This document shows, piece after piece, positions 7,333 through 13,458 of a stretch of DNA of 64,000 nt; the first letter of the stretch is position 1; each line of letters begins with the position of its first letter. Below the pieces are notes generated by a model that was given only the letters and a program-made list of their open reading frames with translations, ran no database searches and was not told the origin of the DNA. The translations under genes and the position numbers were made by a program. This stretch comes from Flavobacteriales bacterium. GTDB taxonomy: Bacteria > Bacteroidota > Bacteroidia > Flavobacteriales_D > Parvicellaceae. The stretch covers positions 1-64,000 of the forward strand of contig JAOASC010000047.1 of NCBI GenBank assembly GCA_025210295.1, read 5' to 3'.

Positions 7333-8250
7333 TTGATCTTTAAAGTTAACATATTAGGTTGTGGTAGTGCTACACCAACATTAAGACGCAATCCTACAGC
7401 ACAAGTGGTTAATGTGTTGGAACGTCATTTTCTAATTGATTGTGCTGAAGGAACACAATTACAAATGCGAAAATATGGAATCAAATTCCAAAAAATCAAT
7501 CACATCTTTATCAGTCACCTTCACGGAGATCATTACTTAGGATTAATAGGTTTTATCTCTACACTTCATTTATTAGGCCGAACAAAAGAACTTCACCTGT
7601 ATGGACCAGAGCCTCTTGGTGAAATTATTTTTAGTCAACTAAGAGCCAGTAAATCTTACCTTAGTTTTCACATAGAGTTTCATCCCTTAACCTCAAAAGA
7701 AAGCGAGTTAATATATGAAGATGAAAAAGTAACGATAGAAACCATACCTTTAAAACATCGTATCTATTGTAACGGTTTTTTGATCAAAGAAAAACAACAC
7801 GACTATAGAATAGACATTAAAGCTGTTCAAGCCCACAATGTTCCTATAGCATGGTATCAACATCTAAAAAAAGGAAAAGATTATGAATTAGAAAATACTA
7901 AAATCCCTGTTTCCGAATTAACATTTCCTCCCTATCAACGAAGGAGTTATGCTTATTGTTCTGATACAGCCTATTTAGAAAGTATTATTCCAATCATTGA
8001 AAATACACATTTACTTTACCACGAAGCAACTTTTTTAAGTGACCAAAAAGATCGTGCAAAGCAAACGATGCATAGTACAATTGAGGAGGCCTGCTTAATC
8101 GCTCAAAAAGCTAAAGTTAAACAGCTACTTGTAGGGCATTATTCTGCTCGTTATAAAACTACAGAAAAGTTTATCGAAGAAGCGACTCCCCTTTTCAAAA
8201 ATACGATTGCTGTTGAAGATGGAGATGAATTTACAATTCCATTGAAGTAA
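7333..8250 (+). CDS. rnz: Ribonuclease Z (tRNA 3' endonuclease)
   Basis: Metallo-beta-lactamase-fold endonuclease that removes 3' trailers from tRNA precursors. The signature HLHGDH (62-67) holds the zinc ions. Other conserved parts are the N-terminal LGCGSATPTLRRNPTAQ, LKHRIYCNGF, the YCSDTAY aspartate, and VGHYSARY near the end. The length of 305 residues is typical of the short form. The start is TTG at 7333, since no ATG lies before the conserved N-terminus. It follows the methyltransferase by 6 bp and overlaps the 3' end of the convergent Nudix gene by 20 bp. Confidence 0.95.
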   Translation: MIFKVNILGCGSATPTLRRNPTAQVVNVLERHFLIDCAEGTQLQMRKYGIKFQKINHIFISHLHGDHYLGLIGFISTLHLLGRTKELHLYGPEPLGEIIFSQLRASKSYLSFHIEFHPLTSKESELIYEDEKVTIETIPLKHRIYCNGFLIKEKQHDYRIDIKAVQAHNVPIAWYQHLKKGKDYELENTKIPVSELTFPPYQRRSYAYCSDTAYLESIIPIIENTHLLYHEATFLSDQKDRAKQTMHSTIEEACLIAQKAKVKQLLVGHYSARYKTTEKFIEEATPLFKNTIAVEDGDEFTIPLK

Positions 8251-8623
8251 ATTGTTTTTTAATCATTTTTCGATCCAATTTCTTAAACTTTGTTTGATTA
8301 TCAAAAAAATCGATCCATTCTAATGCCTCAAATTTTTCTGGTTCATTGAGGAAGAAATCATGGTCTTTTTCAAGAAGTACAAAATAATTTCTTTCGTGTA
8401 AGATTCCTTGTTTCACTTCAGTCAATAAACCACACCAAGTGATATCTTTGGCTCCAATTTTTATACTTGCTTCTTCCTTTGCTTCTCTTATCATCGAGGC
8501 AGTGGGGCGCTCTTTTTTTTCAATGTTTCCCCCAATTAAACTATAACGATCCTGCCCTCTTTTCTTAAAAGCCAAGACAAAAGGATAATTCAGTACTAAT
8601 AAACGTGCTTTTCTATTAACCAA
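8231..8623 (-). CDS. Nudix hydrolase
   Basis: A small (130 residues) Nudix-fold pyrophosphohydrolase. The Nudix box reads G-x5-E-x7-REAKEEAS, with the catalytic REAKEE helix intact but serine at the usual glycine near the end. Members cleave nucleoside diphosphates linked to another group (oxidised nucleotides, ADP-ribose, NADH and others); the substrate cannot be inferred here. The best start appears to be TTG just ahead of VNRKARLLVL; no ATG precedes the conserved first strand. The 3' end overlaps the convergent rnz by 20 bp. Its upstream side faces the tandem small-RNA region, whose copies read on the same strand and end about 40 bp before the Nudix start. Confidence 0.85.
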   Translation of the reverse strand: MVNRKARLLVLNYPFVLAFKKRGQDRYSLIGGNIEKKERPTASMIREAKEEASIKIGAKDITWCGLLTEVKQGILHERNYFVLLEKDHDFFLNEPEKFEALEWIDFFDNQTKFKKLDRKMIKKQFTSMEL

Positions 8624-8661: not shown

Positions 8662-8737
8662 AAAAAAAGGGATGTAGAAAACTACATCCCCGAAAAAATC
8701 AGTTACTTCTAAAAGCAACTATTTATTTGACTACCCC
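8662..8737 (-). ncRNA. Candidate structured small RNA, copy A
   Basis: On the minus strand a TATATTTG -7 box (8742-8749) is followed about 5 nt later by TTGGGGTAGTCAAATAAA, then a stem AGTTGC/GTAACT (one G-U pair in RNA, 8-nt loop). The unit ends in a perfect 9-bp stem GGGATGTAG/CTACATCCC (8669-8677 with 8682-8690) and a T7 run (8662-8668), which is an intrinsic terminator. The predicted RNA is ~75 nt and has no start codon followed by a useful frame. Promoter, two hairpins and terminator in the correct order point to an independent small-RNA gene. The family is not recognised with certainty; the Rfam Flavo-1 motif is one candidate to test. Confidence 0.65.
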
Positions 8738-8741
8738 AACA

Positions 8742-8749
8742 CAAATATA
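8742..8749 (-). promoter_or_regulatory. -7 box (TATATTTG) of small-RNA copy A
   Basis: Exact TAnnTTTG match on the minus strand, with a TTTG at 8766-8769 as a possible -33 box and a 16-nt spacer, slightly short for the consensus. Predicted transcription starts at about 8735-8739. Confidence 0.6.
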
Positions 8750-8844
8750 TAGCATTTTTATATTGCAAATATATTTTTTAGACTAACAATGGTTTTTTAA
8801 CCCTTCAAAGCAAAATATATCGATAAAACTATTTTTTTAGACAT

Positions 8845-8916
8845 AAAAAAAGGGATGTAGAAACTACATCCCCGAAAAAATCAGTTGCTAAAAGCAACTA
8901 TTTATTTGACTACCCC
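8845..8916 (-). ncRNA. Candidate structured small RNA, copy B
   Basis: Second copy of the same unit, 183 bp upstream of copy A on the minus strand. After a TAACTTTG -7 box (8921-8928) it reads TGGGGTAGTCAAATAAATAG, then a perfect stem AGTTGC/GCAACT with a 5-nt loop (8883-8888 with 8894-8899). The terminator stem GGGATGTAG/CTACATCCC (8852-8860 with 8864-8872) is followed by T7. Compared with copy A the internal loop is shorter and a G-C pair replaces G-U, so the stem is kept despite sequence change. The first ~29 nt are the same in both copies. It sits about 70 bp after the mnmA stop and may also end mnmA transcription. Confidence 0.65.
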
Positions 8917-8920
8917 AGTG

Positions 8921-8928
8921 CAAAGTTA
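8921..8928 (-). promoter_or_regulatory. -7 box (TAACTTTG) of small-RNA copy B
   Basis: Exact TAnnTTTG match on the minus strand, 5-7 nt before the conserved TGGGGTAG start of the unit. No clear -33 TTTG is visible; the region upstream is a T-rich run. Confidence 0.55.
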
Positions 8929-8984: not shown

Positions 8985-10160
8985 TTAATTAATTACACCA
9001 CTGCCGATTAATTCTTCTCCTTGATACCAAGCCACAAACTGTCCAGCAGCAACTCCTCTTTGCATTTCTTCAAACTCAATATACAATCCATCTTCTTTTT
9101 GGTGCAACGTATAGTTAGAAAGCGCTTGTCTGTATCTAATTCTTCCAGAATAAGCAATGCTTTGGCCAGGCGTTAACTTAAGATCTTCCCTTACCCAATG
9201 TATATCTTCATTGAGGACTTTTAATCCTTTTCTATACAACCCTTTATGGTTTGTTCCTTGACCAACATACACATGGTTCAATTGCGTATCAGTACCTATT
9301 ACAAATAGTGGCTCTTTCATTCCTCCTACAGCTAAACCTTTTCTTTGTCCCTCTGTAAAATAATGTGCTCCCTGATGTTCTCCAACAATTTTCCCTACTC
9401 CTTTTTTTAAGTTATAGGGTGCTGCAATCGTAACTAAATCATCGTTGGTGTAATCGAACACAACATCTTCATTATCTAACTCTATTATTTTTCCTGTTTT
9501 AGGTTTTAACTGTTGTTGTAAAAATACAGGCAGTTTTACTTTTCCTATAAAACATAATCCTTGTGAATCTTTTTTATTGGCAGTACTTAACCCAATTTGG
9601 TTGGCAATTGCTCTAACTTCTGGTTTTTCTAGGTGTCCTATAGGAAATAAAGCTTTACTTAACTGTTCTTGACTTAGTTGACATAAAAAATAACTTTGGT
9701 CCTTATTGTTATCTTTCCCCGCTAAAAGTCGATATACTTTTTTTCCTTCTATTTCAAGCTCTTCCTTTCTACAATAATGTCCAGTTGCGACATAATCAGC
9801 ACCTAGTTCTAGTGCTTTTTCCAGGAAAATATCAAATTTAACTTCTCTATTACAAAGTACATCTGGATTAGGTGTTCTACCAGCTTGATATTCAGAAAAC
9901 ATATAGTCGACTATTCTTTCTTTGTATTCTTTACTGAAATCAATTACCTGAAATGGAATTCCCAAAGACTCAGCAACTTGTAAAGCATCATTACTATCAT
10001 CTATCCAAGGGCATTCATCGTGCTCTATCACCGAATCATCATGCCAATTACGCATGAACATTCCGATGACTTCATAGCCTTGCTCTTTTAATAAATATGC
10101 TGTTACACTAGAATCTACACCTCCAGACAACCCTACAACAACTCTTTTACCTTTACTCAT
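8985..10160 (-). CDS. mnmA: tRNA-specific 2-thiouridylase MnmA
   Basis: Adds sulfur to position 2 of wobble uridine 34 in tRNA-Lys, Glu and Gln, with ATP activation. The N-terminal PP-loop GLSGGVDSS is intact, and both catalytic cysteines are present (LCNREVKFD and GLCFIGKV). The C-terminal beta-barrel region ends with [19 protein letters not shown]. The ATG at 10160 ([10 protein letters not shown]) is chosen over an in-frame upstream codon at 10277 because it gives the normal ~391 residues and because a TACCTTTG -7 box at 10180-10187 leaves a leader of only about 14 nt. A second U34-pathway gene, mnmD, lies at 22179-22847. Confidence 0.96.
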
Positions 10161-10179
10161 TCCTATAAAATTAATAGTA

Positions 10180-10187
10180 CAAAGGTA
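10180..10187 (-). promoter_or_regulatory. -7 box (TACCTTTG) of mnmA; fixes the start codon
   Basis: Exact TAnnTTTG match 20 nt before the ATG at 10160. An upstream start at 10277 would lie outside the transcript from this promoter. Confidence 0.65.
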
Positions 10188-10278
10188 AGTATTCCTTTTA
10201 AACATAAATTCGCTTCCGATAAATAATCCAACGACAGATTTGATCAATAAAAAATTAGAATTAATTGAAATAATCATT

Positions 10279-12282: not shown

Positions 12283-13458
12283 TTATTTTTCGTTTCCTAT
12301 TTCCAGTAAGATTTCTGCAAGCTTTTCAGGCTGAGAAAAATTTGGTGTATGACTAGAATTTAGTGTATACGATTTCTTTACTTTTCCTTTATACATTGCT
12401 TGTTGTACACTAATTGGTATTGCTCTATCTTCGGTACACTCAATATAATACTTAGGTATTTTTCCAAAGTTTTCTGCTGTAATTTCCAATTCATACATCA
12501 ATGGAGTCACTGGCTCTGGGACTATATACGATTTAGCTTTATTAAATGCTTCTTCTGAAATATCATGAGCAAAGGCATTTTGAATTTCATCTTCTTTAAC
12601 TAATCCATATTTTTGATCTTCTGATAAATAAAAGTTTTCTACAGCCAAAGAGCCCTCTACCCCTTGTACTGCTTTGAAAAACGAACCTCCATTTGGCAAT
12701 AGAAAAGCCGTTAAATAAACTAAACTTTTGACTTTATTCGGCCTTAACTCTGCTACTCTACTGACAGTAATACCATTAAAACTATGACCTACTAAAATAA
12801 CAGGTTCTTCTTGATTGTCAATAATATTAATAATTGTATTCACATAATCATCCATAGTAATCGCTTCTGATGGTGTTTGGTCGTTTCCGTGGCCTGGCAA
12901 ATTAGGGGTAAATACCTTGTGTCCATTTTTTATTAAAACTTCCGCAACATTCCCCCATTGCCAGCCTCCTAACCAAGCTGAATGTACCAAAACATACGTT
13001 GCTTTTTGCTTTTGGGCTTTCAATTCTCTATTAACCTCAAAAAAATCTTTGGTAAGCTTCCACTTATCATTTGTTTTCTCCCAGGTTTCATTAATTATCA
13101 AACCACTCCCCACGTTCATACTCCAATCAGCAGAAACAATGGCTTTTGTTGAATTAACAACCCTTACTTTTACATTCGTATATTTTAAATTGGAAGCTCC
13201 AGATTGAATAAAAGGCTCCCAAAATTGGATAATAGCCTCTTGTCCTTTATAAGTCCCATATGGTTTAGCTTCCATAACCGCATCTTTTGCATAAGCCTTT
13301 TTAATTGCTTTAATATTTCCTTTATTAAAATTAGAAATCCATGTTTGACTTGCTTTTAGCACTTCTGCTTCTACCTCTTCTTTGGTTGCATTTTTGCAGC
13401 CTATATTAAACAATAAGCATAATAATGGTGCAATTAATAACTGTTTACTTTTGATCAT
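12283..13458 (-). CDS. Lipoprotein fusing a SnoaL/DUF4440-like domain to an alpha/beta hydrolase
   Basis: The N-terminus is a lipoprotein signal (LLFNIGC, lipidated C21). Residues ~27-145 match the SnoaL/DUF4440 cone fold (ISNFNKGNIKAIKKAYAKDA ... DKWKLTKDFFEV), usually a ligand pocket. Residues ~153-391 are an alpha/beta hydrolase of the esterase/EstC type, starting YVLVHSAWLGGWQW. The likely triad is S226 in GHSFNG, D344 in CTEDRAIP and H370 in NSSHTPNF. It would act as a membrane-tethered esterase outside the cytoplasm. The two domains are normally separate proteins. A TACATTTG -7 box at 13494 overlapped by a perfect inverted repeat suggests tight control. The substrate is unknown. Confidence 0.85.
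   Translation of the reverse strand: MIKSKQLLIAPLLCLLFNIGCKNATKEEVEAEVLKASQTWISNFNKGNIKAIKKAYAKDAVMEAKPYGTYKGQEAIIQFWEPFIQSGASNLKYTNVKVRVVNSTKAIVSADWSMNVGSGLIINETWEKTNDKWKLTKDFFEVNRELKAQKQKATYVLVHSAWLGGWQWGNVAEVLIKNGHKVFTPNLPGHGNDQTPSEAITMDDYVNTIINIIDNQEEPVILVGHSFNGITVSRVAELRPNKVKSLVYLTAFLLPNGGSFFKAVQGVEGSLAVENFYLSEDQKYGLVKEDEIQNAFAHDISEEAFNKAKSYIVPEPVTPLMYELEITAENFGKIPKYYIECTEDRAIPISVQQAMYKGKVKKSYTLNSSHTPNFSQPEKLAEILLEIGNEK

Follow-up and report, generated by a model that had tools for sequence, protein, structure and literature searches.

The window analysed here, the whole 64,000-nucleotide stretch of a Flavobacteriales genome, carries on its minus strand two units of a small RNA (sRNA), flanked upstream by mnmA, which encodes a tRNA thiouridylase (8985..10277, minus strand; Pfam PF03054/PF20259/PF20258), and downstream by a NUDIX-domain gene (8231..8623, minus strand; PF00293). 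The true mnmA start is probably internal to the open reading frame at 8985..10277. Unit 1 (copy A of an earlier note on this DNA) covers ~78 nt at 8662..8739, beginning with the 5' GGGGTAG arm and closing with the terminator T-run, and unit 2 (copy B) ~74 nt at 8845..8918. All the parts that the earlier note had read in these two minus-strand units, namely TAnnTTTG, an internal stem, a terminator stem and T7, are present in the sequence, and its spacing of 183 bp agrees with the 179-183 nt that separate the two starts. Both copies have the same layout: TAnnTTTG, 4 bases, GGGGTAGTCAAATAAATA, a hairpin, TGATTTTTTC, GGGGATGTAG-loop-CTACATCCC and a T-run. Elsewhere in the window, a predicted lipoprotein (12283-13458, minus strand) appears by eye to fuse an NTF2/SnoaL-like domain to an alpha/beta hydrolase.

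In unit 1 the -7 box TATATTTG (8742..8749) is followed by TTGGGGTAGTC; in unit 2 the TAnnTTTG promoter reads TAACTTTG (8921..8928) and is followed by CTGGGGTAGTC. The distance from TTTG to GGGG is nearly constant throughout the family. The 5' arm GGGGTAGTCAAAT, at 8725..8737 in unit 1 and 8904..8916 in unit 2, begins with GGGGTAGTC and is proposed to be a single-stranded seed. It precedes an internal hairpin supported by covariation, GUUGCUU/AAGUAAC in unit 1 (8701..8719) and GUUGC/GCAAC in unit 2 (8883..8898), after which comes TGATTTTTT. The earlier note had seen this stem as kept by a G-U pair in copy A despite a change of the loop from 8 to 5 nt; the stem and its G-U pair stand, but the copy A stem extends to 7 pairs around a 4-nt loop, which makes the loop shorter than the 8 nt noted. 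The 3' end of both units consists of GGGATGTAG/CTACATCCC plus T7 and was recognized as an intrinsic terminator by a terminator search (8662..8691 and 8845..8873): the region contains four terminator-like sites against 0.2 expected from shuffles, both unit terminators among them. With a terminator found for each unit and TAnnTTTG in front of each, the proposal that each is an independent sRNA gene, with a promoter and a terminator to itself, is supported. Both units also fold better than their shuffles (z ~-3.9 for unit 1 and ~-3.8 for unit 2). Covariance scores were 90 bits (R1, E 9e-13) and 93 bits (R2) for unit 1, and 99 bits (R1, E 2e-14) and 91 bits (R2) for unit 2.

The internal hairpin of unit 2, together with the U6 that follows it (8882-8900, minus strand), itself scores as terminator-like, so that transcription could also yield a shorter product of ~45 nt. 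The U-tract after the hairpin is kept in most family members, except in the long-hairpin copies of the genus here called g8.

The duplicated segment is only ~95 nt long, starting at the -7 box and ending with the terminator; the two promoters are preceded by unrelated DNA. BLASTN with one unit recovered a third copy in the source genome, on another contig (contig 15; G000:C15:51903-51974), in line with the earlier reading of a duplicated unit. Related copies were found in six of the seven genomes of the genus, at 1-4 per genome, and as single, more diverged copies in genera g2 and g4; BLASTN and covariance-model matches in these genomes have E-values from 1e-4 to 1e-37. Weaker yet clearly patterned matches come from genus g8, whose members were reached by covariance model R1 and the pattern TTTG-N1-6-GGGGTAGT-N-AA; there the layout is the same and the hairpin and terminator sequences are quite different. 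The relatives that the earlier note had proposed to look for thus span four genera of one GTDB family in Flavobacteriales, with 28 aligned copies (25 distinct) of 71-81 nt.

Searches of 399 genomes of the order and 395 of the class gave no convincing copy beyond this GTDB family. Weak R1 matches at the order level resemble ordinary terminators after genes and were rejected. When 84,980 species were scanned for TTTG-N3-5-GGGGTAGTYAAATA, a pattern that could miss strongly diverged relatives, the true matches were all Flavobacteriales, Cryomorphaceae or Crocinitomicaceae metagenome-assembled genomes; matches in other phyla had no promoter, hairpin or terminator and were discarded. A viral origin was considered and dropped too, as the 27 exact 15-mer matches found in viral contigs are put down to chance, none being followed by a hairpin or terminator, and a phage search gave no match to the unit.

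Tandem pairs arose more than once, in the source genome window and on contig 212 of G034. On contig 158 of the latter genome two units overlap head to head at the contig end (L118/L202:47-110), forming a perfect inverted repeat without terminators that is either an assembly artefact or an inverted duplication. One copy in G032 (L101:1501-1572) has kept its promoter and 5' arm while its hairpin and terminator have decayed, and looks like a pseudogene of the sRNA.

The flanking genes and their orientations vary from locus to locus, which indicates that the sRNA is a stand-alone gene and not the leader of one particular gene. Some sRNA positions are nevertheless old: the order mnmA-sRNA-NUDIX is common to the source species and G002, as is a locus before a PIG-L gene, and in g2, g4 and g8 one copy is located downstream of a YggS-like gene (Ala_racemase_N).

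The earlier note had taken the two window copies as a sign of structural selection, and the family alignment bears this out. Over the 25 distinct members and two helices, 98.6% of helix cells can pair, compared with 67.5% in shuffled and 36-57% in slid controls, and 101 cells show double changes against 30.6 in shuffles, in an alignment that was fitted to the structure and is hence biased towards it. All nine terminator pairs and three of the five hairpin pairs have changed on both sides. The terminator stem varies freely in sequence with its pairing kept, and in the long g8 hairpins UGUGCUAC/GUAGCACA and UGCGCUGC/GCAGCGCA the compensation is visible by eye. Compensatory changes in both helices indicate a real small-RNA gene family. 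A larger closing helix, GGGG.AGUCA with UGAUU.UUUC, appears in several minimum-energy folds and was rejected, being broken wherever AUAU, GUAU, UCAU or another sequence follows the hairpin. The alternative fold suggested earlier, GGGGUAG with CUAC, likewise failed, since CTAC occurs in the 3' terminator arm of the two window copies only (2/28).

The most conserved part of the RNA is not a stem. The eight bases GGGGTAGT are identical in 28/28 members, a conservation above that of any stem, and the arm GGGGUAGU is usually followed by YAAAUA, as the hairpin is in most members by the U-tract. Arm and hairpin are 80-100% identical among orthologues and paralogues, whereas the flanks are mostly near random (~0.5); comparison of the copies shows the gene boundaries, the structure and the arm, as well as the upstream box described below. 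Most predicted ensembles leave the arm unpaired, almost completely in the g8 copies with long hairpins; in the minimum-energy fold it is partly paired in about half of the genus members. As far as can be judged from sequence and predicted folds, an invariant and mostly unpaired arm is what marks a functional single-stranded site. Its conservation above the stems family-wide, the third genomic copy and a fixed upstream box all go beyond the earlier note.

This box, TTnGnC(G/T)AAAA, is found in all four genera; in most members its end lies exactly 29 nt upstream of TTTG, and a motif sampler scored it at 316, against 216-222 in shuffled controls. In the window it reads TGTTAGTCTAAAAA (8775..8788, minus strand) and lies 29 nt before the TTTG of unit 1; unit 2 is without such a box, and activation may thus differ between the two window copies. 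TAnnTTTG has been placed at -12 to -5 in the housekeeping promoter of Flavobacterium psychrophilum (PMC9723704). On that scale, the box would fall at about -50 to -38. This is a typical position for an activator, and the box is likely an activator site. Across 39 genomes the strict pattern of box plus promoter was counted 19 times, five of these at sRNA units, against 42 times for the reversed control; being rarer than its control, the box is not a general promoter element. A wider box regulon was also rejected, as outside the sRNA genes the strict pattern does not rise above the reversed control.

No family in Rfam accounts for these RNAs. At the gathering threshold Rfam 15 has no match anywhere in the window, and the units of 12 relatives gave only sub-threshold chance matches. 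The earlier note had named Flavo-1 (RF01705) as a candidate, which proved to be a different RNA: it is unmatched in the window at the gathering threshold and between 8600 and 9000 up to E 10, while the same search detects a true Flavo-1 (46.1 bits) in a g8 locus. Flavo-1 is also an sRNA of Flavobacteriia in the same genome group, but forms a long imperfect hairpin and is unrelated in sequence to the window units. In that g8 locus (L086:1673-1752, minus strand) the Flavo-1 RNA lies ~100 nt from a family unit and is structurally unrelated to it. A CRISPR repeat (CRISPR-DR63, 25 bits, threshold 37) was dismissed, as each single unit comes with a promoter and a terminator and lacks spacers. There was no match to a 6S family in Rfam, and a literature search on GGGGUAGU returned unrelated papers only.

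In kind, the new family is a familiar one and most resembles FopS of Bacteroides thetaiotaomicron (PMC11697453), with which we compared it by description. FopS, of ~65-70 nt, is likewise a multicopy, mostly intergenic sRNA of Bacteroidota with a conserved single-stranded 5' stretch, a housekeeping-type promoter and an intrinsic terminator, and does without Hfq (PMC11697453); our family shows the same general traits, being multicopy (three copies in the source genome) and short, with an unpaired arm, a terminator and a canonical promoter. It differs in having 1-4 copies instead of 12-15, an extra conserved hairpin and the fixed upstream box. As far as the searches reach, its sequence appears to differ as well, the new family having no Rfam match and no match in Bacteroidia genomes outside its own. 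GibS of Bacteroides (PMC7366714) shares trans-action, a conserved unstructured 5' seed, an intrinsic terminator and a phylum without obvious Hfq or ProQ, but is 145 nt long and has a non-canonical promoter (PM2). Rfp18 and other sRNAs of F. psychrophilum (PMC9723704) are also independent conserved genes with predicted mRNA pairing; Rfp18, again compared by description, uses its third stem-loop for pairing and has been described as a conserved RNA of Flavobacterium.

On these grounds we consider it probable that the units form a lineage-specific, multicopy, intergenic family of trans-acting base-pairing sRNAs, independent of Hfq and using the 5' arm as seed. The units have what is generally expected of such RNAs, namely their own promoter and terminator, a non-coding sequence and a conserved unpaired region. 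Hfq (PF17209) was found in none of the 39 family genomes, with controls including E. coli and B. subtilis positive, so that pairing would not need Hfq. FopS and GibS repress by pairing of an unstructured 5' arm at mRNA start codons (PMC11697453, PMC7366714), and it is by analogy with them that pairing between arm and mRNA is proposed. We infer transcription of the units, an activator, pairing and targets. An activator at TTnGnC(G/T)AAAA would turn on transcription in most copies, and the GGGGUAGU arm would base-pair with one or more mRNAs near the translation start, leading to repression or another form of tuning. The hairpin and the terminator would end the RNA and protect or stabilise it. 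Sibling copies would add dose and, with the box present at unit 1 and absent at unit 2, could answer to different signals. The siblings OmrA/OmrB, Qrr and LhrC likewise occur as tandem or dispersed near-identical copies with a common seed and diverging promoters; they are mostly linked to Hfq, belong to other phyla and are not homologous to the new family.

Our search for targets covered strict complements of the arm. Perfect complements of ACTACCCC just upstream of ATG pointed to no obvious shared orthologous gene in seven genomes, and longer complements of ATTTGACTACCCC, with one mismatch allowed, to no recurring gene. The invariant arm could equally, from its sequence, be a protein-binding site, and the RNA would then be a sponge like CsrB or 6S RNA, with GGGGUAGU contacted by a protein instead of acting as an mRNA seed. 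Such a role would fit an arm that is invariant across genera whose target sequences should differ, as well as the lack of a conserved mRNA complement in our search, and the U-tract after the hairpin could provide a second contact. Yet each RNA holds one copy of the motif, unlike CsrB-type sponges, and has neither a long 6S-like open-bubble rod nor a 6S match in Rfam. The conserved arm of FopS doubles as mRNA seed and RbpB site (PMC11697453), so that invariance alone is no argument for a sponge, and we regard this explanation as unlikely.

The unit could also be a mobile or selfish repeat, a REP/MITE-like cassette from promoter to terminator that needs no cellular function. Copies do lie at unrelated loci within the genus, the tandem duplication is confined to the unit, and elements of this type need no mobilising gene. 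They are however few in each genome, keep orthologous positions between species, have no terminal inverted repeats and are absent from phages and viral contigs, and they combine strong sequence conservation and compensatory stem changes with near-random flanks; a selfish origin therefore seems very improbable. Least credible of all is a cis-acting leader or attenuator whose regulated terminator controls the downstream gene: the layout of promoter, 5' structure and terminator would suit it, and a co-directional gene sometimes follows (the NUDIX open reading frame starts 39 nt past the unit 1 T-run), but downstream genes vary by locus and at times lie on the other strand (L027, L031), and a possible anti-terminator pairing exists in 2/28 members only.

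Beyond the base-pairing sRNA family that we favour, one may tentatively imagine a dedicated sRNA regulon, in which an activator would read the box almost only at these genes and the arm would work with a new Hfq-independent partner protein. If so, this lineage would have its own counterpart of the RbpB-FopS system, built on an unrelated RNA. To our knowledge, few sRNA families have been described in Bacteroidota outside Bacteroides. Both the promoter box TTnGnC(G/T)AAAA and the sRNA family itself are new here, and the latter merits an Rfam entry, as no current Rfam model detects it. With its invariant 5' arm, recurrent duplication and common promoter box, this compact and clearly bounded family offers a clean system in which to study the action and control of base-pairing RNAs in the absence of Hfq.
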